From positions 503,454 to 567,453 of the forward strand of contig NZ_LN869529.1 of the NCBI RefSeq assembly GCF_001244995.1: 64,000 bases of DNA, read 5' to 3'. The notes beneath the pieces are model-generated. The model was not told the DNA's origin. It searched no databases and was given only the letters and a program-made list of their open reading frames with translations. Positions within the stretch are counted from its first letter, which is position 1; each line of letters starts with the position of its first letter. Made by a program: the position numbers and the translations under genes. Origin of the DNA: Intestinimonas massiliensis (ex Afouda et al. 2020) (GTDB lineage Bacteria > Bacillota > Clostridia > Oscillospirales > Oscillospiraceae). Below, piece after piece: positions 16,870 through 29,193 of the stretch.

Positions 16870-18789
16870 TTACATTATCTTCTGAAACATATAGCGCACC
16901 TTGTCCAGGCGGCTGTTTGGACGGCGGGGCTGGATGACTGGCTTGCCGACAGCGGCCTGATACCCTTTCAGTTCTGTAAGGCATACGCTCTGCCCGTTGG
17001 TGTAAAAGGCCAGATCAGTACGGTATGCCTGTATACAGCGGGCGGGAATCTCGCCAGTAAAGACAACTTCATCCTTTTTTACCTGGACCGTTTCGATGGT
17101 GGCACAGTATTTCGGTGCATCATGATAAGCCCTGGAAAGATATTCCCGGGGCGCATAGAGGGTGAAGGAGAGATAAGGTTCCAGCAGTTGCGTCCCTGAT
17201 TCCTTCAATGCCTGTTCCAATACAATCGGGGCCAATGAGCGGAAGTCCGCCGGCGTGCTGACCGGACTGTAATAAAGCCCGTATTCAAAGCAAATCTTAC
17301 AGTCCGTTACGTTCCAGCCGAACAAGCCCTGCTCCAGCCCGTAACGGATACCATCCCTGACAGCGTTTTGAAAACTCTGGTTCAAGTATCCCAGCGAAAC
17401 CCGGCTCTCGTATTGTACACCGGAGCCAAGCGGGAGTGGTGTAACAGACAGTCCGATGGATGCCCAAAACGGGTTGGGCGGCACCTCGATATGGATGGTG
17501 TGGCTGGCTGCTTTGAGCGGCCGCTCCATATAAATGACGGTGGGTTCCTTTACCACTGTTTCAAGCTTGTATTTTTCCGACAGCAAAGCGGAAACAACCT
17601 CCAACTGCACCCGGCCCAAAAAAGAAAGAATGATCTCATGGGTGATGGAATCCACTTCGCAACGCAAAAGCGGGTCAGTATCCGCAAGTTGCGTAAGAGC
17701 GTCCAGCAGCCGTTCTCTTTGCGCTGCCGTTTTCGGCGCAATCGTCGTCCGCAGCATGGGGAGGGGGTCCTCGCGCCACCTTTTACGAGGGAGCCGGGTT
17801 TGGTCCCCTAATACATCGTTTAACCTCACGCTGTCGCTGGGAAGGATAACAATTTCACCCTGATAAGCGGTGTCTGTCCGAACAATTTCCCCTTTGGATG
17901 GAATACGCATCTCTGTGATTTTCAGCTTTTCTCTCCCGGCCAGGGCCACCGTATCCCGCAGGCGCAGCGTTCCGCTGTATAACCGTAGATAGACACGCCG
18001 CTGGCCGCAATCGGTGTACTCAACCTTGAAAACGCTGCCGCATAGGGCGGCGCCCCCCTGTTCCCCAATCGGTTGGAACAGCCCTGTCACCGCATCCATC
18101 AACGGTTGAATGCCAAGGCCATTTTTGGCGCTGCCATAATAGACCGGGAACAGGGAGGCGTCTTGAACCCGCTGCTGTTCCTCCCGCGCAAGTTTTTCCC
18201 GGCTGATTGGTTCTCCTGCGATATACTTTTCCAATAATTCATCGTTATTTTCGATGACCGCATCCCATGCTTCTATGTCGGTATTTTCCTCCAGGACTAT
18301 TTCCGGGGACAGCGACACCGTCTGCTTGATGATAATATCGGCGGAGAGCTTATCCCGAACAGACTGAACCACGCTCTGCAAATCAACGCCAGCCTGGTCG
18401 ATCTTGTTGATAAAGATAACGGTGGGAATGTTCATTTTCCGCAGGGCATGGAACAGAATACGGGTCTGGGCCTGCACGCCATCTTTAGCGGAGATCACCA
18501 AGATGGCCCCATCTAAAACAGCCAAAGAGCGGTACACCTCCGCCAAAAAATCCATGTGGCCGGGCGTATCCACAATGTTAACTTTACATCTGTGCCACTG
18601 GAAGGAAGTGACTGCCGCTTGAATGGTAATCCCACGCTGCCGCTCCAAAAACATGGTGTCCGTCCTCGTTGTCCCTTTTTCGACGCTCCCCGGTTCTGAA
18701 ATGGCTCCGCTGGCATATAGCAGGCTCTCCGTCAAGGTCGTCTTTCCAGCGTCTACATGGGCAAGAATTCCAATATTGATTATTTTCAT
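16870..18789 (-). CDS. tet(W): Tetracycline resistance ribosomal protection protein Tet(W)
   Basis: 639 aa, the exact length of the Tet(M)/Tet(O)/Tet(W) group. GTPase motifs AHVDAGKT (residues 10-17), DTPGHMDF (about 74) and NKID (about 128) are intact, and the EF-G-like C-terminal domains are complete. From memory the sequence is near-identical to Tet(W), differing at scattered residues. The protein dislodges tetracycline from the ribosome. Ribosome site GGGAGG lies 7 bases before ATG. GC is higher than the surrounding ICE, a mark of separate acquisition. Expression is likely attenuated by the leader at 18823-19112. Confidence 0.97.
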
Positions 18790-19694: not shown

Positions 19695-19732
19695 AAGACC
19701 GTCAAATCTCAACATTCGAGACTTGACGGTCT
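19695..19732. terminator. Bidirectional terminator hairpin
   Basis: AAGACCGTCAAATCTC pairs with GAGACTTGACGGTCTT (one G:U) around a short loop. It separates the HxlR remnant from the convergent ImmA-like gene. T-rich on the + strand 3' side. Confidence 0.72.
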
Positions 19733-20265
19733 TACATTTTGTGATTGTATTTAAGAAAATCGTTTTGGTGTTCCTGTTTGCGAAGTTGATAGCCCTGTGC
19801 AATCAGCGTATCCACTTTCAGAGCAATCAGGTTTATGTCAGAACACATTGCCCGTGCAATCTGCTGAATGTCATAGCCGTTTTCAATGTATTCCAAAATG
19901 GTGTCGTCCGGGAGCGAAGCCTGAGAAGCGAAGATATTTGCTTCATACTCCATACGGTTCTCTCTCATATCAAAGATGTTGAACTCTTTGAACCCGCCGA
20001 CAGCAACCGCTTCTTGCCTGTGGAGAACATCGTGTCCGATTTCGTGCCATAGCACTAACTGCTCCACGACCGGGTGCATACCGTTTTTAAGAAAAACAAA
20101 GCGGTTCTTCAGAATAACTTTATATGCTCCACGCTGCTTGTCAAAATTTCGGTAGATTATATTGATACCAAGCTCTTTTGCGACCTTGTATGGGTCACGA
20201 GTACCGCAGCGGTCAATGAGCTTGTTTACGATTTTCACAATCTCAGCCGTAGTGTAATACCCCAA
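19732..20265 (-). CDS. ImmA/IrrE-family metallopeptidase (ImmA-like)
   Basis: 177 aa. Zinc motif LWHEIGHDVLH (about residues 72-82, HExxH) and the downstream EYEANIFASQ glutamate match the family. In ICEBs1, ImmA cleaves the repressor ImmR after DNA damage and releases element excision. This gene follows the HTH repressor gene on the same strand, the same order as immR-immA. The start is TTG 20265 with ribosome site GGGAGGTG. Role in this element is inferred from that parallel. Confidence 0.85.
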   Translation of the reverse strand: MGYYTTAEIVKIVNKLIDRCGTRDPYKVAKELGINIIYRNFDKQRGAYKVILKNRFVFLKNGMHPVVEQLVLWHEIGHDVLHRQEAVAVGGFKEFNIFDMRENRMEYEANIFASQASLPDDTILEYIENGYDIQQIARAMCSDINLIALKVDTLIAQGYQLRKQEHQNDFLKYNHKM

Positions 20266-20365: not shown

Positions 20366-20776
20366 TTACTCGTCTTTGCGGTATTTCTTCGGGGTGTATT
20401 TTTTATTGTTTTTCTTTGCAATAAGATAGGCTTCCTGAATGGCGTCAACCATTTCACGCATATCCTCGTCAGCCATTTCGCCGCCGGCAAACAGACCGGT
20501 AACTTCTGCAAGCAACTCCTGAGCCTGTCTTGCTCCTCTGCGTCCGTACTTATCCTCTACATCGGCGATGAAAGCGTCGTCCTCAGACAGCAGATAATTC
20601 ACATTTACATTTAAGGATTCTGCCAGCTTCTTATATCTTTCCATTCCTCTCGGACGGGATTTATCATTTTCATAAGAACCAATTATGCGTCGGGTTACGC
20701 CGATTTTAGCTGCCAACTCATCTTGACTCATACCAAGCTTTGTTCTTTCAGCCTTGACTTTTTCACCGAATGTCAT
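20366..20776 (-). CDS. XRE-family repressor (ImmR-like)
   Basis: 136 aa from ATG 20776. The HTH is residues 5-60 (LGMSQDELAAKIGVTRRIIG), followed by a linker and an acidic helical C-terminal domain. The longer frame starting at 20938 runs across the divergent promoter and is rejected. Size and partner (ImmA-like gene downstream) match ImmR of ICEBs1. It faces the Y-family polymerase gene across 148 bases that carry repeats, its likely operators. Confidence 0.84.
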   Translation of the reverse strand: MTFGEKVKAERTKLGMSQDELAAKIGVTRRIIGSYENDKSRPRGMERYKKLAESLNVNVNYLLSEDDAFIADVEDKYGRRGARQAQELLAEVTGLFAGGEMADEDMREMVDAIQEAYLIAKKNNKKYTPKKYRKDE

Positions 20777-20804
20777 TGTGATTTCACTCCTTAAAAGAAT
20801 ATTT

Positions 20805-20888
20805 ACAGTTGAACTACCCATTTGCTCTTGACAAGTACAGTTGAAGTGTATATAATATGAATTGGGAAGTTGAACTACACATAGTGTA
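20805..20888. promoter_or_regulatory. Repeated candidate operators in the divergent repressor/polymerase region
   Basis: GTTGAACTACCCA (starts 20808), GTTGAAGTGTATA (starts 20840) and GTTGAACTACACA (starts 20869) are three direct near-copies. The palindrome TACAC-ATA-GTGTA at 20876-20888 adjoins the third. The middle copy overlaps the polymerase promoter spacer, so a bound repressor would block it. Confidence 0.6.
20828..20856 (+). promoter_or_regulatory. Consensus promoter of the polymerase operon
   Basis: TTGACA at 20828-20833, TATAAT at 20851-20856, spacer exactly 17. Perfect boxes imply strong expression unless repressed, which fits the overlapping repeats. Confidence 0.82.
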
Positions 20889-20924
20889 CACCAAACTACC
20901 CAAAATGTCAAGGGGGTTCTAAAA

Positions 20925-22160
20925 ATGTTACGAAGCATACTTCATTGTGATATGAATAACTTCTATGCCAGCGTCGAATGTATGCTCGACCCCGCATTGA
21001 AGAAATATCCGATTGCTGTCTGCGGCTCTGTGGAGGAACGACACGGTATCGTGCTTGCAAAGAACTACAAAGCAAAGGCTTTTGATGTGAAAACCGGGGA
21101 CGCAGTATGGCAGGCTAAACAGAAGTGCAAGGACTTGGTTGTAGTGCCGCCCCATTATGAGGAGTATATCAAATACTCAAAGCTTGCGAGAAGCGTTTAT
21201 GAGCGATATACCGACCAAGTTGAACCGTATGGTATGGACGAGTGTTGGCTGGATATTAGCGGGACAGAAAGCCTTTTCGGTTCGCCGGAAAAGGTGGCAA
21301 ATGAAATTCGTGAGACTATGAAGTTTGAACTCGGCTTGACGATTTCTGTGGGTGTTTCCTTTAATAAGATATTTGCGAAGCTCGGCTCGGATATGAAGAA
21401 ACCGGACGCAGTAACCGTAATTCCAAAGGACACATTCAAAGAAAAGATTTGGGGACTTCCTGCCGCTGACCTGCTCGGTGTAGGACGGGCAACCCAGCGA
21501 GTGCTTGACAGCTATTGTATTCGTACCATCGGGGATTTAGCGAATACCGACCCTGAGTTCTTACGCAGAAGATTAGGAAAGAACGGAGTAGTTTTATGGA
21601 ACTATGCCAATGGTAACGACCTTTCCCTTGTTGCCAAGAAAGACTTCGTTTCTCCTATAAAAAGCGTAGGACACGGTATAACAACGGTAGCAGACTTAGA
21701 GAAACCGGAGCAGGTGTGGCCCGTGTTTCTCGAGTTAACCCAAGACATCGGACACAAGCTCCGTGTTCACGGACTGAGTGCAGAAGGTGTCGCAATACAT
21801 ATTAGAGACAACACACTCAATACAAGGCAATGGCAGACGAAGATTGCACTTCCTACACAGTCTCCGATGATTATTGCAAAGACCGCTTTTCAGTTGTTTG
21901 AAAAAAGATATGGGTGGAATAACCCTATCCGTTCTGTGACGGTACAAGCCATAAATCTTGTTCCACAAGACACGCCCCGTCAAATAGATATGTTTATGGA
22001 CGCCGCCAAGCAGGACAAATTGGAGCGAATGGAAAAGTGTGTTGAAGAAATCAGACGGCGTTTCGGAAAGGACAGCATAAGGAATGGGGTTCTGTGTCAG
22101 AACCTGCGGCTACCACCGAAAAAAGCTGAAATCACTATGCCGACAGGTATGGTCGGTTAA
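20925..22160 (+). CDS. Y-family translesion DNA polymerase (DinB/UmuC type)
   Basis: 411 aa. The catalytic acidic residues are present in LHCDMNNFYASVEC (residues 7-20) and GMDECWLDIS (about 102-111). A helix-hairpin-helix follows (LLGVGRATQRVLDSY). Near the end QIDMF (about 362) looks like a beta-clamp binding motif. Such enzymes copy damaged DNA with low fidelity. The strong, probably repressed promoter and the ImmR/ImmA pair next door suggest damage induction. Ribosome site GGGGG lies about 8 bases before ATG. Confidence 0.9.
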   Translation: MLRSILHCDMNNFYASVECMLDPALKKYPIAVCGSVEERHGIVLAKNYKAKAFDVKTGDAVWQAKQKCKDLVVVPPHYEEYIKYSKLARSVYERYTDQVEPYGMDECWLDISGTESLFGSPEKVANEIRETMKFELGLTISVGVSFNKIFAKLGSDMKKPDAVTVIPKDTFKEKIWGLPAADLLGVGRATQRVLDSYCIRTIGDLANTDPEFLRRRLGKNGVVLWNYANGNDLSLVAKKDFVSPIKSVGHGITTVADLEKPEQVWPVFLELTQDIGHKLRVHGLSAEGVAIHIRDNTLNTRQWQTKIALPTQSPMIIAKTAFQLFEKRYGWNNPIRSVTVQAINLVPQDTPRQIDMFMDAAKQDKLERMEKCVEEIRRRFGKDSIRNGVLCQNLRLPPKKAEITMPTGMVG

Positions 22161-22745: not shown

Positions 22746-23477
22746 TTGAAACATTTATCGAGATTTGACATCGAAGCGATTGCCGACAAGTATGTTCAGG
22801 CATATATGGCACTTCCTGATGTCCGTAACACACAAATATACAGAATTGACCCGGAGCTTCTCTTGGAGAAGGTTCTCGGATTGAATGTCGAATACCAGCA
22901 CCTATCCTATGACGGTAGTATTCTCGGAATGACCTCATTTACGGAAATGGGTGTTCAGGTATTTGAAGATGATGATAACGAAGCCTTTTTCTTTTTGGAC
23001 GGGAAAACCGTTCTTGTGGAAAAGGACTTGAACTTTGACAGCAAGCTGAAAGGCAGAAAGAACTTTACCTTAATGCACGAGGGCAGCCATCAGATATTCA
23101 AGATGTTGTTCCCGCATGATTACGGTGTAACACAGAAATCTGCCGGAGTACATTATTGCAAGGCAAATTCCGAGAGGAATAAGCCAATATCCGATTGGGA
23201 GGAATGGCAGGCAAACACGCTTGGAGCTGCTATTCTTCTTCCTGAAAACCTCATAAAACAAGGAATGTATCTGTTCAGTCTCGGCGAAAAGATTGAATGC
23301 CTGAACAAGATATACTATCCGAGCGTATATAAAAGGTTTGACGCACTTGCCGATTTTTTAGGGTGTTCCAAAAAAGCACTTGCCATACGAATGAAACAGC
23401 TCGGACTACTGAAAAAGGAGTATCTTGATAATCCTTTTGATTTGGTTACGGTTTATCCGGAGGTGAGCGAGCTATGA
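22746..23477 (+). CDS. Second ImmA/IrrE-family metallopeptidase
   Basis: 243 aa from TTG 22746 (ribosome site GGAGG). HExxH is present as MHEGSHQ (about residues 112-118), with a downstream EWQANTLGAAILLP glutamate that fits the third zinc ligand. The C-terminal 60 residues (VYKRFDALADFLGCSKKALAIRMKQLGLL) look like a substrate-recognition or HTH-like region. Larger than the ImmA-like protein at 19732 and not similar in its ends, so a different substrate is likely. Confidence 0.84.
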   Translation: MKHLSRFDIEAIADKYVQAYMALPDVRNTQIYRIDPELLLEKVLGLNVEYQHLSYDGSILGMTSFTEMGVQVFEDDDNEAFFFLDGKTVLVEKDLNFDSKLKGRKNFTLMHEGSHQIFKMLFPHDYGVTQKSAGVHYCKANSERNKPISDWEEWQANTLGAAILLPENLIKQGMYLFSLGEKIECLNKIYYPSVYKRFDALADFLGCSKKALAIRMKQLGLLKKEYLDNPFDLVTVYPEVSEL

Positions 23478-23671
23478 AATCGTTGGAACAAAAGATAATC
23501 GTAAGGTGCAAAAACTGTGGCTGGCGTATTTTCGACAAGGTAACAATGACAACAGGTGTTATTGAACTGAAATGTCCGAACTGCCACAGAGTAGTAGAGG
23601 TTGACCTGTCCCTACGCAAGGGAACGGTCAAGTACAGATTAACAAGAAGTAATAACAGAGCGAACAATTAA
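23474..23671 (+). CDS. Com-like zinc-ribbon protein, 65 aa
   Basis: Two CxxC pairs: RCKNCGWR (residues 11-18) and KCPNCHRVV (about 34-42), with spacing typical of Com-family zinc fingers. Phage Mu Com binds a stem-loop in the mom message and switches on its translation. This gene overlaps the preceding stop (ATGA) and is followed at once by a 240-base structured leader. It may act on that RNA; that link is inference. Confidence 0.7.
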   Translation: MKSLEQKIIVRCKNCGWRIFDKVTMTTGVIELKCPNCHRVVEVDLSLRKGTVKYRLTRSNNRANN

Positions 23672-23676
23672 ATATC

Positions 23677-23819
23677 GGGCAGATGTACCGAGCCACGAGT
23701 CCTTGAGCGAAAGCTCCTGAGTCATCAAATTGCCGGACGCTGAGAATTAAGGGATAGAAATATCCTAATGTTCTTGGTGTCCGGCTTTTTTGTCGCTCCC
23801 GAAAGGAGCAAGACCGTGA
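23677..23819 (+). ncRNA. Structured leader with intrinsic terminator upstream of the sigma-like gene
   Basis: Three hairpins follow one another: GAGC-GAAA-GCTC (23705-23716), a long imperfect stem closed by GCCGGAC/GTCCGGC (23732-23785) with six T after it, and GCTCC-CGAAA-GGAGC (about 23795-23809). The middle one is a good terminator; the others are not needed for that. The 244-base gap holds no open reading frame. It could be an attenuator or a regulatory RNA; no known riboswitch core is visible. Confidence 0.5.
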
Positions 23820-23915
23820 CATATAAGTGGCTGGCATATATCGCCAAGTATCCGTAATCTCCGAATTTTTGATTTCAACCAAATTCAAAAATTCAAATTT
23901 AAGGAGATTACGACA

Positions 23916-24500
23916 ATGACAAAACTTACATTAGAACAACAGGAATTATTATTTGCGAACGACTGCAAACTCATCAATCTGCGGTATGAATACCACGGTT
24001 ACACCGGCACGGAGAAATGGGCGATTGTAACAGAACTGGCGGAAGAAGAATTGTGGGTTAAATACCCTGATGTTATCCGCCGGTACACCCCGTTCATTCT
24101 GCTTTCTATGGCTCAGGGCGAAGTGATTGACGAGTCATACAGAAACAATGATAAGTACGAAAAGCGAGCAAAAAGAACAATCGATGTGTACGGCTATGAA
24201 GATGACATCTCTGAACAGTTCCACCGGGAACTGATTACTCCGTTTGTTGACCCGTTTGAGCAGGCGGAGGAAGAACGGATTGAGGAAGAAAAGGAACAGC
24301 TTCGACAGTTAGAAATTGCAAAAGTCAGAAAGGTATTGGAAATGCTGAAACCCGTTCAGAGAGAAAGAATGATTAAAGCGATTTTGTTAGGTATGAGTTC
24401 AAGAAAAATCGCAAAGGAAGAAGGCGTATATTACAGCGTTGTAGATAAGTCGATTGCCGCCGCAAGAAAAAATTTCAAGAAATTTTATGAAAACCTCTGA
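23916..24500 (+). CDS. Sigma-70-like protein (region 4 type HTH)
   Basis: 194 aa. The last 65 residues are a sigma region 4-like HTH (MLKPVQRERMIKAILLGMSS, then SSRKIAKEEGVYYSVVDKSI). The N-terminal part is acidic and helical, with no clear region 2. Small ICE-encoded proteins of this sort often control late or excision genes. Ribosome site AAGGAG precedes ATG 23916. It sits downstream of the structured leader, so expression may depend on read-through of the terminator at 23732-23791. Confidence 0.75.
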   Translation: MTKLTLEQQELLFANDCKLINLRYEYHGYTGTEKWAIVTELAEEELWVKYPDVIRRYTPFILLSMAQGEVIDESYRNNDKYEKRAKRTIDVYGYEDDISEQFHRELITPFVDPFEQAEEERIEEEKEQLRQLEIAKVRKVLEMLKPVQRERMIKAILLGMSSRKIAKEEGVYYSVVDKSIAAARKNFKKFYENL

Positions 24501-24508
24501 TTTTGGGT

Positions 24509-24574
24509 GTGCATTTTGACCCCCTTTGTCCAAATGAGTGAAGGGGTTATTTCAATTCCGGATACGAAATGCAC
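24509..24574 (+). repeat. Nested inverted repeat upstream of the MazF-like gene
   Basis: GTGCATTT (24509-24516) pairs with AAATGCAC (24567-24574), enclosing a second stem of ACCCC with GGGGT around 24519-24546. No T tract follows. It could be an operator or RNA control site for the gene starting at 24610. Confidence 0.5.
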
Positions 24575-24609
24575 TTTCAAGACTAAATGAACAGAGAGGT
24601 TATACATAT

Positions 24610-25173
24610 ATGCAGAGAAAAGAAATTCAGCGTGGAGATTTATTCTACTACGATTTTGGAAAAAGGGAGGGGTCTGTCCAGTCGGGAGAGAGACCTGTAA
24701 TGGTAATTCAGGCGGACAACTTTAATGCAAACGCTCCGACAATTATTGTTGCGGCTGTTACAGCTGTGATGAAAAAGAAGTATCTTCCTTCACACATCAT
24801 TTTGGGTGAGGACTTCGGTCTGAAGAAGCCGTCAATGGTTCTTCTTGAACAGATACAGACCGTCAATAAGGATGAACTGACAGACTACATTGGTTCGGTA
24901 AACGATGAAAGGCTTTGGAAGCAAATTAACGCAGCTCTTAAAAAGACTTTCGGTTTATGGATTTACAACACAGACAGAAACGGAGATGTTCGTTGCTTAT
25001 GCCCCAAGTGTCTGAGCGACTATATCCACGACCCAAACTATGTTGTCAGGCGTCTTGACCCGTTTGCGAAAAGCAAAGACCACTGCGATAAGTGCAATAA
25101 CAGCGGTTGGGATTACATCGTTTATGACAAACGCACCTCGGTCAAAGGAAAGGGGTGCAGGAATGTCAAATAG
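24610..25173 (+). CDS. MazF/PemK-like protein with cysteine-rich C-terminal extension
   Basis: 187 aa from ATG 24610 (ribosome site GAGAGG). Residues 1-112 match the MazF fold: RGDLFYYDF, GERPVMVIQ, and TIIVAAVTAVMKKKYLPSHI. Residues 130-187 carry CLCPKC and CDKCNN pairs, a zinc-ribbon-like extension not usual in MazF. MazF enzymes cut mRNA. No antitoxin gene is adjacent: upstream is a sigma-like gene and downstream is xis. An upstream in-frame start at 24538 lies inside the inverted repeat and has no ribosome site. Confidence 0.78.
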   Translation: MQRKEIQRGDLFYYDFGKREGSVQSGERPVMVIQADNFNANAPTIIVAAVTAVMKKKYLPSHIILGEDFGLKKPSMVLLEQIQTVNKDELTDYIGSVNDERLWKQINAALKKTFGLWIYNTDRNGDVRCLCPKCLSDYIHDPNYVVRRLDPFAKSKDHCDKCNNSGWDYIVYDKRTSVKGKGCRNVK

Positions 25174-25384
25174 CAGTGAAAAAAAGAAGCGTTACAACAT
25201 TCCTCTTTGGTGTAAACCAAACCTGTCTATTGAGGAGGCGGCAGCTTATTCCGGTATTGGAATGGGAAAGCTTTATGAAATGACGGAAAGTCAGGATTGT
25301 CCTTTTGTTCTTTGGATTGGTAGCAGAAGAATGATTAAAAGGAAAGTCTTTGACGAGTTTATCGAAAGGCAATACTCGATTTAA
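25163..25384 (+). CDS. Excisionase-like protein 1 (Tn916 Xis family)
   Basis: 73 aa. Winged-helix excisionase pattern: IEEAAAYSGIGMGKLYEMTE followed by CPFVLWIGSRRMIKRKVF, ending DEFIERQYSI. Tn916 Xis shares the TIEEASKY and IKRKQFE segments. It overlaps the MazF-like gene by 11 bases, so both are co-translated. First of four tandem paralogues. Confidence 0.82.
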   Translation: MSNSSEKKKRYNIPLWCKPNLSIEEAAAYSGIGMGKLYEMTESQDCPFVLWIGSRRMIKRKVFDEFIERQYSI

Positions 25385-25394
25385 GGAAAAAGTC

Positions 25395-25440
25395 AAGTCT
25401 GCGATGAGCCGATTCGCATAATTGGCTTACCGCAGACTTT
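25395..25440 (+). terminator. Terminator-like hairpin between xis copies 1 and 2
   Basis: AAGTCTGCG (25395-25403) pairs with CGCAGACTT (25431-25439); an inner GCC/GGC adds to the stem. Four T follow. It would limit transcripts passing from copy 1 into copy 2. Confidence 0.6.
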
Positions 25441-25444
25441 TGAG

Positions 25445-25484
25445 TATGCTGTAATCACCAAAGGCAAGGAGGTTACAGCGTATG
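25445..25484 (+). promoter_or_regulatory. Hairpin enclosing the ribosome site and start of xis copy 2
   Basis: GCTGTAA (25448-25454) pairs with TTACAGC (25473-25479), extended by GTAT/ATAC-type pairs into the start codon region. The ribosome site AAGGAGG (25466-25472) lies in the loop. Such folding could hold back translation of copy 2. Confidence 0.5.
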
Positions 25485-25703
25485 TCTGACAAACAACTTA
25501 AATCCAATATGTCGAGTGTCCCAATTTGGAAGAAGATGAACCTTACGGTTGAAGAAGCTTCGGAATATTCGGGCATTGGCACATCAAAGATAAAAGAACT
25601 ATCGAATTGCGAAGATTGTCCTTTCGTTCTTTGGAACGGGGCAAAGCGATTGATTAAAAGGAAACAATTTGAGGAATACCTGTCATCGCAGTATTCCCTC
25701 TGA
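25482..25703 (+). CDS. Excisionase-like protein 2 (Tn916 Xis family)
   Basis: 73 aa. Same pattern as copy 1 (VEEASEYSGIGTSKIKELSN, then CPFVLWNGAKRLIKRKQFEE), ending YLSSQYSL. The IKRKQFE segment is the closest of the four to Tn916 Xis. Ribosome site AAGGAGG is inside a hairpin. Its end lies 13 bases before the start of copy 3. Confidence 0.82.
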   Translation: MSDKQLKSNMSSVPIWKKMNLTVEEASEYSGIGTSKIKELSNCEDCPFVLWNGAKRLIKRKQFEEYLSSQYSL

Positions 25704-25716
25704 TGGAGGTGGTGTT

Positions 25717-25953
25717 ATGGGAAATAAGCAGACTGAATTGAATAATTCAGGTAATCAGGTGGAAACCGTGCCGGTTTGGGTAAAGCCTTACCTTACGATT
25801 GATGAAGCGACCGCTTACACAGGCATAGGCAGAGACAAACTCTATGAGATGACAAGCCGAGAAAAATGTCCGTTTGTTCTGTGGGTAGGAAACAGACGAA
25901 TGATTAAGAGACGAGTTTTTGATGAGTACATTGAGAAAATGTACTCAATATAG
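25717..25953 (+). CDS. Excisionase-like protein 3 (Tn916 Xis family)
   Basis: 78 aa from ATG 25717 (ribosome site GGAGG). Pattern IDEATAYTGIGRDKLYEMTS then CPFVLWVGNRRMIKRRVFDE. Most like copy 1 in the C-terminal half. An in-frame start at 25669 inside copy 2 lacks a ribosome site and is rejected. Confidence 0.82.
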   Translation: MGNKQTELNNSGNQVETVPVWVKPYLTIDEATAYTGIGRDKLYEMTSREKCPFVLWVGNRRMIKRRVFDEYIEKMYSI

Positions 25954-25965
25954 GAAGGAGGGCTT

Positions 25966-26205
25966 ATGGACAACGATGTTTTAGCTTACAGAGTCTTACT
26001 CGAAAAGCGAAAAGAAAATGCTCCCTTTTGGGAGAAGAAGGTTTTAACGGTTGAGGAAGCAGCCGAGTACACCGGTATCGGCAGGACAAAAATCAGGCAA
26101 ATCATAATGAGGGGCGATTGTCCCTTTGCTGTCACTAACGGTGTTCAGGTCTGTGTAATCCGAGACAAATTTATTGATTATCTTGATAAGCAATTTAGTA
26201 TTTAA
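25966..26205 (+). CDS. Excisionase-like protein 4 (Tn916 Xis family, divergent)
   Basis: 79 aa. It keeps VEEAAEYTGIGRTKIRQIIM but the wing differs (CPFAVTNGVQVCVIRDKFID), so it is the most divergent copy. It is the one next to int, with 14 bases between them. Ribosome site GGAGG. Adjacent xis-int is the usual arrangement in Tn916-like elements, so this may be the working excisionase. Confidence 0.82.
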   Translation: MDNDVLAYRVLLEKRKENAPFWEKKVLTVEEAAEYTGIGRTKIRQIIMRGDCPFAVTNGVQVCVIRDKFIDYLDKQFSI

Positions 26206-26219
26206 GGGAGGAAAAAGTT

Positions 26220-27473
26220 ATGCCAAGAACAAAAAGAAAAGACAAATCAAGAGTAGTGCTTCGTACAGGCGAATCACAGAGAGCCGATGGTACATACCAT
26301 TTCAGTTGGACGGACGCCAACCACAAAAGGCGTTATGTGTATGCCAAGACACTTGATGAACTGCGATACAAAGAGGAACAAATCGCAAAAGACAAGAGCG
26401 ATGGCATTAAGGCAGAAGCTCGATACACAACGGTCAATGACATTTATGAGCTTTGGAAGGATTTGAAGCGAGGTCTGAAAAACAACACCTTTGAAAACTA
26501 TAAGTATATGTATGAGACCTTTGTCCGTCATCAGATAGGTTCAAAGACTGTATCTTCTCTGAGAAAAACAGATATAAAGAGGTTCTATAATTACCTTGCA
26601 GACGAACGCCATCTGAAGCCGGCGACCATTGATAATATTCATACGGTTCTCCATCAGATTTTGGATATGGCGGTCGATGATGACTACATCAGGAATAACC
26701 CGTCAAACAATGTGCTCAAAGAGTTGAAACAGTCCCATTGTTTTCAGACCGAGAAGCGTAGAGCCTTAACAAAGCCGGAGCAAGAGTTGTTTCTTGACTA
26801 TTTGAAAAACTCTCCGACATCAAAGTATTGGTATCCGGTGTTTGCGGTTATGATTGGTACGGGACTTCGTGTTGGAGAGGTTACAGGGTTAAGATGGTGC
26901 GATATTGATTTGGAAGAAGGTATCATTGATGTGAACCACACGCTGGTTTACTATGACCATCGTACCGAGGGCAGTAAGCGTGGCTGTTACTTCAATGTTA
27001 ATACGACCAAAACCCCGGCAGGAAGAAGAAAAGTGCCTATGCTCGGTTTCGTCAAAGAAGCATTTTTAATGGAAAAAGAAAGACAGGAATTACTTGACCT
27101 TCATTGTGAAGCGACTGTTGACGGATACACCGATTTTATCTTCATCAACCGTTTCGGACAGCCGCAACATCAGGCAACCCTCAACAAAGCAATTCGCCGT
27201 ATTATTCGTGACTGTAACGATGAGCAGTTGTTGAAAGATGAAAATGCAGAAGTATTGCTCCCGCATTTTAGCTGCCATTCTTTAAGGCATACTTTCACAA
27301 CAAGAATGTGCGAAGCAGGGGTAAATGTTAAGGTCATTCAGGACACGCTCGGTCATAAGGATATTTCAACTACGCTCAACATCTATACCGATGTAACAAA
27401 GGAGCTGAGGAAGTCCGAATTTGAAGGTCTTGACTCCTACTTCAAAAATGAGTATAATAAAGTGTCGGTTTGA
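26220..27473 (+). CDS. int: Tyrosine integrase (Tn916-type)
   Basis: 417 aa, close to the length of Tn916 Int. An N-terminal arm-binding domain, a core-binding SAM-like domain (about 75-160) and the catalytic domain are visible. Catalytic residues: Arg in GTGLRVGEVTGLRW (about 220), HSLRHTFTTRM (about 350-360) and the nucleophile Tyr in TTLNIYTDVT (about 391). It recombines the element ends for integration and, with Xis, for excision. It lies at the element end, as expected. Ribosome site GGGAGG precedes ATG 26220. Confidence 0.94.
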   Translation: MPRTKRKDKSRVVLRTGESQRADGTYHFSWTDANHKRRYVYAKTLDELRYKEEQIAKDKSDGIKAEARYTTVNDIYELWKDLKRGLKNNTFENYKYMYETFVRHQIGSKTVSSLRKTDIKRFYNYLADERHLKPATIDNIHTVLHQILDMAVDDDYIRNNPSNNVLKELKQSHCFQTEKRRALTKPEQELFLDYLKNSPTSKYWYPVFAVMIGTGLRVGEVTGLRWCDIDLEEGIIDVNHTLVYYDHRTEGSKRGCYFNVNTTKTPAGRRKVPMLGFVKEAFLMEKERQELLDLHCEATVDGYTDFIFINRFGQPQHQATLNKAIRRIIRDCNDEQLLKDENAEVLLPHFSCHSLRHTFTTRMCEAGVNVKVIQDTLGHKDISTTLNIYTDVTKELRKSEFEGLDSYFKNEYNKVSV

Positions 27474-27655
27474 CAGATTAAATTGATACGGACTTCATAG
27501 TTGGTGGATAAAAGCATTTACATCATTTACATCAATTCTTACACAAAGCCCCCACGAAACTAATCGAAAATAAAGTAAAGTAGGATTTTGAAAAAATCTG
27601 ATTTGCGACTTATTTTGAACTATGTTGGGTTATAGCAAGAATTGAAACGATGTCC
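27474..27655. mobile_element. Integrase-side terminal region of the ICE
   Basis: AT-rich, no gene. It holds a tandem pair of ATTTACATC repeats (27516-27533) that could be Int arm sites. GC rises sharply at about 27,650-27,660, where the chromosome seems to begin. The exact attachment core cannot be fixed because the other end lies outside the window. Confidence 0.5.
27516..27533 (+). repeat. Tandem 9-bp repeat near the ICE end
   Basis: ATTTACATC occurs twice in direct succession, 43 bases after int. Short direct repeats near element ends are typical integrase arm sites; here this is inference. Confidence 0.5.
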
Positions 27656-27699
27656 TAAATCGTCCCGACCATGAAGCCCCTGGACTGAACACCCTTCGA

Positions 27700-27767
27700 C
27701 AGCATACCGTGGCAGCATGGACCACGGTATGCTGTTGTGCATAAAAGAGGACCGCGCGGGCGCGGTC
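27700..27767 (+). other. Two hairpins in the leader of the trkH operon
   Basis: CAGCATACCGTGG (27700-27712) pairs perfectly with CCACGGTATGCTG (27722-27734). A second stem GACCGCG/CGCGGTC is at 27750-27767. The first is followed by TTGTGCATAAAAG, not a clean T run. These may end an upstream transcript now displaced by the ICE or control trkH. No c-di-AMP riboswitch core was recognised. Confidence 0.5.
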
Positions 27768-27810
27768 TGCCCGGCCCGGCGCCCTCATCCCTCAAGGAGG
27801 CTTTCTTGCC

Positions 27811-29193
27811 TTGCTGAATCGAATGCGAAACCACTTCCGGGATTTCCTCCGGAACCGGCGGAACTTCAACCCTACCCGGATCGTGGCCGGGTCCTTCGGC
27901 GTAATCATTCTGCTGGGAACCCTGCTGCTGATGCTGCCCGCGGCCTCCCGCGACGGTCAGAGCGCCGGGCTGTTCGCCAGCCTGTTCACCGCCACCTCGG
28001 CCTCCTGTGTCACCGGCCTCATCGTGGCGGATACCTGGCTCCAGTGGAGCCTGTTCGGACAGACGGTCATCCTGGTGATGATCCAGTTGGGCGGACTGGG
28101 CTTTATGACAGTCATCACCCTGTTCTCCCTGGCCCTGCATCGGCGCATCGGGCTGTCGGAGCGGCTGGTGATGGTGTCCACCTTGAACCTGAACGACATG
28201 GACGGTGTGGTCCGGATGGTACAGCACGCCCTGATGGGCACCTTCTGCATGGAGGGGGCGGGGGCGCTGCTGCTGTCTCTGCGCTTCATTCCAAAGTTCG
28301 GTCTTGCGGGCGGCCTGTGGCGGGGCGTCTTTCACGGTGTCTCCGCCTTTTGCAACGCGGGCTTTGACCTGCTGGGCGGCTACAGCGGAGCCTTTTCCAG
28401 CCTGGCCGGCTTCAACGACGATCCGGTGGTGCTGCTGACCACCGCCGCACTCATCACCGTGGGTGGGCTGGGCTTTTTCGTGTGGGAGGATGTGCTCCAG
28501 CACCGGCGCTGGAAAAAGCTGTCCCTCTATAGCCGCCTGGTCCTGAGTCTCACCGCGGCGCTCATCTTGTTCGGCGCGCTGTTCTTCTTCGCCGTGGAGT
28601 ACCGCAACCCGGCCACCCTGGGGCCCATGCCCCTGTGGCAGAAGGGACTCAATGCCCTGTTCCAGTCCGTTACCCTGCGCACCGCCGGCTTCGACGCCCT
28701 CGGACAGGGCGGGCTGACCGACAGCTCCCTGGCCCTGTCGGTGATTTTCATGCTCATCGGAGGCTCCAGCGGCTCTACCGCCGGCGGCCTTAAGACCGTC
28801 ACCGTGGCCGTGCTGCTGCTGGCCTTCCGGGCGGGCGTGCGGGGCCGGGAAGAGGTCACCCTCCGGGGCCGGGCCATCTCCCACCGCCGGGTTATGAACG
28901 CCATGACCCTGACGCTGATGGTGGTCTTCCTGTTTATGGTGAGTTCCATGCTTCTGTCCACGGTGGACGGACTGCCCTTCCTGTCCGCCGCCTTCGAGGT
29001 GGCCTCCGCCATGGGGACCGTGGGCCTCACCGTGGGCATCACGCCCGGACTGAGCCTGTTTTCCCGAGGGGTGCTGGTCTTTCTGATGTATGTGGGCCGG
29101 GTGGGCATTCTGTCCTTCTCCATTGCCTTCCTCACCCGAAGCAAGTACCCCGCAAAGATCAAATACCCTACCTTCGATATCATGATCGGTTAA
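27811..29193 (+). CDS. TrkH/KtrB-family potassium uptake protein
   Basis: 460 aa from TTG 27811, with AAGGAGG 10 bases upstream; the next in-frame ATG (27823) is too far from that site. About eight to ten membrane helices are visible with four pore-loop regions (for example TATSASCVTGL, SAFCNAGFD, TLRTAGFD and MGTVGLTVG), each with the conserved Gly of the selectivity filter. This is the membrane channel of a K+ uptake system. trkA follows by 12 bases, so the two form the complete transporter. Confidence 0.93.
   Translation: MLNRMRNHFRDFLRNRRNFNPTRIVAGSFGVIILLGTLLLMLPAASRDGQSAGLFASLFTATSASCVTGLIVADTWLQWSLFGQTVILVMIQLGGLGFMTVITLFSLALHRRIGLSERLVMVSTLNLNDMDGVVRMVQHALMGTFCMEGAGALLLSLRFIPKFGLAGGLWRGVFHGVSAFCNAGFDLLGGYSGAFSSLAGFNDDPVVLLTTAALITVGGLGFFVWEDVLQHRRWKKLSLYSRLVLSLTAALILFGALFFFAVEYRNPATLGPMPLWQKGLNALFQSVTLRTAGFDALGQGGLTDSSLALSVIFMLIGGSSGSTAGGLKTVTVAVLLLAFRAGVRGREEVTLRGRAISHRRVMNAMTLTLMVVFLFMVSSMLLSTVDGLPFLSAAFEVASAMGTVGLTVGITPGLSLFSRGVLVFLMYVGRVGILSFSIAFLTRSKYPAKIKYPTFDIMIG

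Follow-up and report, generated by a model that had tools for sequence, protein, structure and literature searches.

The window analysed here, a stretch of 64,000 nucleotides from Intestinimonas massiliensis, contains four small head-to-tail open reading frames (ORFs) at 25163-26205, immediately 5′ of a tyrosine integrase gene, int (26220-27473, + strand), whose product combines a DNA-binding domain of the Tn916 type at its N terminus (PF02920) with PF00589. The four ORFs lie on the + strand and all match the Tn916-Xis family PF09035 (gathering score 22.9 bits) in a Pfam profile search: copy 1 (25163-25384, 73 aa, 69.8 bits), copy 2 (25482-25703, 73 aa, 83 bits, the highest of the four), copy 3 (25717-25953, 78 aa, 65.7 bits) and copy 4 (25966-26205, 79 aa, 54.5 bits). 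With E-values of 1.8e-23 to 1.3e-14 and scores above the curated cut-off the family match is far beyond chance, and the original prediction of Tn916-Xis-like paralogues in front of int was right in its coordinates and in the family of all four. It had named unrelated MerR-like helix-turn-helix proteins beforehand as the contrary outcome; this identity is ruled out because PF09035 is the best model for every copy. Copy 1 is 59% identical to copy 3, 49% to copy 2 and 37% to copy 4 in the pairwise comparisons made with it. Copy 2 does retain the Tn916-like IKRKQFE, as had been read from the sequence, and matches Tn916 Xis [PDB-id: 1y6u] with an E-value of 2.2e-10. Structures were predicted for two of the four proteins, copy 2 (pLDDT 81.1) and copy 4 (pLDDT 75.4), and the top PDB match of both is the winged helix of 1y6u. 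A search of the source genome with copy 2 (E up to 0.1) recovered only these four proteins and no fifth Tn916-Xis.

All four copies are under purifying selection. Comparing each with five relatives gives pN/pS of 0.09-0.44 in 19 of 20 comparisons and 0 in the remaining one; for copy 1 the values are 0.09-0.15 in four of five and 0 in the fifth. Orthologues of all four copies are found in the loci L017, L018 and L031 on the Xis tree, where several of the forks have support in the 80s, and four-copy orthologues occur in elements whose int is just 83-88% identical, with pN/pS of 0.13-0.41.

The array lies at the right end of a conjugative element of about 48.6 kb in the 3′ end of lysS. In the source genome lysS occupies C7:479706-482497, and its 3′ end is duplicated after int, at 27663-27678 of the window; these two positions give the length of the element and place its left 21 kb beyond the window. 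The duplicate (+ strand) is the attR core TCCCGACCATGAAGCC, the displaced 3′ end of lysS, assigned from the lysS reading frame and from a same-genus genome (G008), in which an uninterrupted lysS is followed by the DNA that here follows int. The lysS genes of the two genomes score above the NCBIfam cut-off for lysine-tRNA ligase; a flanking ORF (27811-29193) resembles TrkH with a score below the model cut-off. The attL sequence, TTCCCGACAATGA, lies beyond the window near position 1983 of L116, and the same att core follows int in many relatives. The element encodes a relaxase, a coupling protein, a VirB4-like ATPase (the name given to a TraG P-loop match), ParA and ParB (the ParA gene at L116:6237-7061, PF13614) and a tetracycline-resistance ribosomal protection protein of the tet(M/W/O/S) group (16870-18789, - strand; NCBIfam), which we take to be tet(W). 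A streptomycin adenylyltransferase family gene (PF04439; L116:3925-4806, - strand) is present in the left part of the element, beyond the window. No near-identical DNA was found in the plasmids or in the E. coli searched. Relatives of int occur in plasmid and phage records, the best-ranked of each being without annotation.

Repeat finding identifies tandem repeats, TTTACATCA, near the right end (27517-27534, + strand) that are likely Int arm sites, and the right ends of relatives hold a similar motif more often than shuffled sequence does. The original prediction had proposed that the copies may bind different arm sites, compete with one another or control the direction of excision stepwise. 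Arm-type repeats near the right end are about equally frequent with arrays and with a single xis, at 1.88 per end in 24 array ends vs 1.50 in 20 single-xis ends. The motif TTATG, picked by eye and so only a lead, occurs between int and the att core 1.35 times per end at 20 single-xis ends (among L042-L084) vs 0.27 when shuffled; at 24 array ends it is not enriched (0.42 vs 0.31). A strong promoter-like site inside the end of int (TTGACT-17-TATAAT, 11 of 12 positions, 27430-27458) reads towards attR and would read into the left end in the circular form. Elsewhere in the window, genes for an XRE-type regulator and a Y-family DNA polymerase lie on opposite strands at 20366-22160, the listed ORFs overlapping at their starts, and an IrrE-like peptidase gene (19732-20265) adjoins the regulator; the group might be a damage-linked switch. 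A long imperfect inverted repeat (23853-23912), with GGAG in its 3′ arm, stands just 5′ of a sigma-like ORF at 23916 (PF08281, below cut-off), and its pairing is displayed under a sub-threshold RNA model. PADLOC, run on five proteins of the region, gave only weak capP or RmrA matches for the two peptidase-like proteins and a marginal match for the mazF-like protein described below.

The four xis genes are not evenly wired. A PemK/MazF-like gene (24538-25173, + strand; PF02452, 78.5 bits) precedes the array and its 3′ end overlaps the start of copy 1, which occupies the position of the lone xis in close relatives. Where 2 kb or more of upstream sequence is available, 30 of 34 array loci vs 9 of 31 single-xis loci have a mazF-like homologue 5′ of their first xis. 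Copy 1 is not universal, since L012 and L016 are without it although 4 kb of upstream DNA is covered in each, and no mazF was found upstream in the array loci L012, L016, L024 and L038. In 33 of the 37 loci that carry at least three copies, all but L012, L016, L062 and L039, the first inter-xis gap measures 89-145 nt. The 65 later gaps are 49 nt or shorter, some being overlaps, except for two of 84 nt in L034, and the last xis stands 6-15 nt from int across all 39 array loci. In single-xis loci the gap between xis and int is 52-165 nt.

Just 3′ of copy 1 the first gap contains an imperfect inverted repeat, a potential hairpin (TGCGATGAGCC...GGCTTACCGCA, 25395-25439). Across an alignment of 26 gap sequences (the window plus 25 of the 29 unique gaps) 82.1% of cells are standard pairs vs 33-46% when the pairing is slid, and 17 cells are changed on both sides vs 8.4 in shuffles. 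The pattern TGCGA-N5-11-TCGCA found in this repeat between copies 1 and 2 occurs nowhere else in the element. The -35 hexamer of a promoter-like site (TTGGCT-N17-TATGCT, 25422-25450, + strand), from which the copy 2-3-4-int unit may be transcribed, overlaps the repeat; the usual layout is a TTGGCT-like hexamer in the 3′ arm, 17 bases and then TATNNT. This pattern, written post hoc, fits 24 of the 29 unique inter-xis gaps of at least 80 nt vs 2.2% of mononucleotide shuffles; L056, L041 and L030 do not fit and L073 has its match at another place. A generic promoter and terminator scan listed neither a promoter nor an intrinsic terminator at the first gap. No RNA family reached its gathering score in 23000-28000, where the matches are all sub-threshold and the one at the gap is to a microRNA model. 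Another possible hairpin (25445-25482, + strand) would cover the ribosome-binding site of copy 2, with 69.6% of cells paired and a covariation of 0.233 vs 0.210 in shuffles. A looser sigma-70-like pair is seen in 19 of 32 xis-int gaps of single-xis loci vs 12.7% of shuffles. Copies 2-4 are thus placed between a conserved hairpin and promoter-like block, the putative int promoter, and int itself, and are probably made whenever Int is made. The simplest history, read from gene order, would be that copies 2-4 were inserted between int and its putative promoter while copy 1 kept the old place. For copy 1 the claim of ancestry is carried by synteny, not phylogeny, because the ‘first’ copies are scattered in the Xis tree (13 changes) and do not form one clade.

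How common such arrays are was judged from relatives of int, 80 of the 153 found being kept. Two or more upstream Xis (2-6) are present in 39 of these loci, 35 have exactly one and six have none, which fits the expectation that one xis is the usual state. Four of the six loci with none have a partial int and a fifth, L051, has 172 bases upstream; L053 has a nearly whole int, 2.2 kb upstream and no Xis. The arrays comprise two Xis in two loci, three in 13, four in 21, five in two and six in one, the count in L037 being limited by the contig end, as that in L062 may be. Among the six counted in L034 is a single 152-aa ORF with two Tn916-Xis domains (L034:2439-2897), a naturally occurring fusion of adjacent xis genes seen in one metagenome-assembled genome. 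All 39 arrays have an int at least 77.1% identical to the source int and all 35 singles have one at most 75.5% identical. On a tree of int (58 rows after 12 of the 80 loci were excluded for partial int, internal stop or short upstream DNA and identical proteins were collapsed) the arrays form one clade of 24 rows (SH-aLRT 98). A further set of 15 loci with int, from other queries or collections, contained two arrays (78% and 82%) and 13 singles (at most 72%), some of these 13 being near copies.

Genome samples drawn independently of int give a wider view. PF09035 is present in 32 of 197 genomes sampled from the order and in 68 of 393 from the class, with adjacent Xis clusters in five of the 32 and five of the 68 (G000 and G060 are common to both samples). 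Eight clusters were fetched. Four of them, L138-L141, have an int 74-88% identical and are the same array type, L141 being, by its length, seemingly the same contig as L017. The other four are not of this type: L142 and L143 each have three xis beside an int 41-43% identical, and L137 (int 52%) and L144 (int 28%) have two each; these arrays are possibly of separate origin. A wider int tree of 70 rows, built without L137 and with some joins unsure, requires at least three switches between the single and the array state; arrays have therefore arisen or been lost more than once.

The copy next to int stands apart from the rest. Copies 1 and 2 carry the basic wing motif IKRK and copy 3 carries IKRR, and this type of wing is absent from copy 4. 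The different wing that the original prediction saw in copy 4 is real and is a property of the whole int-proximal class: the mean net charge of the wing is +1.25 in 28 int-proximal copies vs +4.86 in 71 other array copies. In the recognition helix the charge is +3.14 vs +0.92 for the same two groups. The first lysine of IKRK is found in none of the 28 int-proximal copies, in all 71 other array copies and in all 31 singles. An extra N-terminal stretch is frequent in the class and in copy 4 is modelled as a helix at residues 3-14 with a pLDDT near 60. On the Xis tree (131 rows, proteins under 60 aa and duplicates excluded) the int-proximal class is one clade with all 28 rows (support 99/98), and it contains none of the 31 distinct single-xis proteins. 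Tn916 Xis, a long-branched row, joins this clade when included, which may be an artefact. Copies outside the class duplicate and turn over in some lineages, and local-duplicate-like pairs are seen in L020 (r2/r3) and L034 (r5/r6). Copy 2 and its orthologues are placed apart from the clade of copies 1 and 3, on short alignments with many forks unsupported. In the independent arrays L142 and L143 the loss of wing charge is not plain: inspected by eye, their last copy has IRRK or IRRE.

Tn916 carries a single xis-int pair, whereas the element here has four xis. Its Xis [PF09035; PDB-id: 1y6u] shares with our copies the family, the winged-helix fold and the position 5′ of a Tn916-type int, but it has a basic wing of which copy 4 lacks most. 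CTnDOT of Bacteroides resembles the locus in having adjacent small Xis-type proteins, Xis2c and Xis2d, both needed for excision; it differs in having another integrase and no four-gene set. The other comparisons follow the accessible text of the cited papers. The Tn916/Tn1545 family integrates at many sites (PMC12084037), whereas our element lies in the 3′ end of lysS with a core common to many relatives. ICEs of the vanG family with tet(W), such as ICE_SsuGZ1_lysS, integrate in the 3′ end of lysS, and members of the family are expected to share more than 40% identity in their relaxase, coupling protein and VirB4 (PMC7168690); they carry a ParA gene (PMC4701971). A vanD ICE in lysS has the repeat TTCCC[g/a/c]AC[a/g]ATGA, which our attL sequence fits, and is described as notably missing an excisionase (PMC10765050). 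Going by these descriptions, the lysS ICEs and our element share the lysS 3′-end site, a tet(M/W/O/S)-group gene and ParA; the accessible text of PMC7168690 and PMC10765050 mentions no xis array. The tripartite ICEs of Mesorhizobium also have several winged-helix directionality factors per element, RdfS, RdfG and RdfM, of which RdfS activates other rdf promoters, but there three factors serve three integrases (PMC5882170) and here four copies stand beside one. XisF4 and Cox act on phage promoters as repressors or activators (PMC7379572).

Diverged copies that recur through a branch of related elements suggest different jobs. Taking this together with the homology, the gene order, the restriction to a clade, the purifying selection and the charge shift, we tentatively favour, at a little less than even confidence, an excisionase module made up of several paralogues with a division of roles, carried by a conjugative element that integrates in lysS. 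Copy 1 would be the probable ancestral, usual excisionase, expressed with the upstream mazF-like gene, and copies 2, 3 and 4 would probably be co-produced with Int from a promoter that we infer, as we do the co-expression itself, the DNA targets and all functions. Copies 1-3, which retain the basic winged-helix surface of Tn916 Xis, would probably act by bending the DNA of the element ends. Copy 4 would represent an old re-specified class in which most of the basic wing is gone, the recognition helix has become more charged and an extra N-terminal stretch is present. It would most likely bind a different site, either the palindrome at the putative promoter of the int operon, as an autoregulator, or only one element end, and so set the amount of excision by Int and the other Xis proteins. 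The view that the paralogues are unlikely to be interchangeable thus stands, on the family, the models, the purifying selection, the charge shift and the copy 4 clade; the picture of four equal tandem genes does not, since copy 1 goes with the mazF-like gene and copies 2-4 with int, with the hairpin and promoter-like block between them.

Four other readings were considered. The copies could be excisionases that substitute for one another, maintained because a higher dose of Xis raises excision, as the local-duplicate-like pairs and a copy number ranging from two to six would allow. We think this unlikely in view of the int-proximal class, a single clade with an altered surface, and of orthologues of all four copies recurring at 83-88% int identity with pN/pS of 0.13-0.41. 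An antagonist is also conceivable: copy 4, having lost the basic wing residues, having a predicted N-terminal helix (residues 3-14) and being tightly linked to int, could form mixed complexes with other Xis or with Int and lower excision when Int is made. The charge gained in its recognition helix suggests instead that copy 4 has kept DNA binding, and such an anti-excisionase likewise seems improbable.

Copies 2-4 might act as transcriptional regulators only, and not as directionality factors. Excisionases can regulate transcription, as the accessible text on phage Cox and on RdfS describes (PMC7379572, PMC5882170), and the conserved inverted repeat overlaps the promoter-like site, but copies 2 and 3 retain the basic Tn916-type wing and we regard a purely regulatory role as distinctly unlikely. 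Least probable to us, and very unlikely, is that the extra xis genes were captured from other elements, so that the element is excised by, or excises, co-resident relatives. The place of copy 2 and its orthologues outside the clade of copies 1 and 3 would agree with this, as would a lysS site that is common to other ICEs in the accessible text of PMC7168690 and PMC10765050; yet none of the 31 distinct single-xis proteins falls in the copy 4 class, and many forks of the tree are unsupported on its short alignments.

Direction control by tyrosine integrases is usually taught as one Int with one Xis. Neither the Xis family nor its fold nor the insertion site of the ICE is new. No description of diverged Xis sets next to a single integrase, recurring throughout a clade, was found in the literature searched, which covered few subscription papers and others in part; the original prediction had allowed that the array might already be characterised in a known ICE. 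The arrays carry a warning for annotators: small xis genes can easily be overlooked, or several taken for one. A vanD ICE in lysS is described, in the accessible text, as having no excisionase (PMC10765050). It is possible, if doubtful, that some ICEs swapped a single excisionase for a division-of-labour set, part made with an upstream operon and part with Int, with one old paralogue turned regulator or end-specific partner. More than one origin of such sets is possible, given the changes between single and array that the int tree needs, and mixtures of Xis would then perhaps be a general direction-control strategy among ICEs of the lysS site and their relatives. With several diverged Xis next to one Int, this branch of gut ICEs offers a natural test of how the wing, the helix and the timing of expression contribute to direction.
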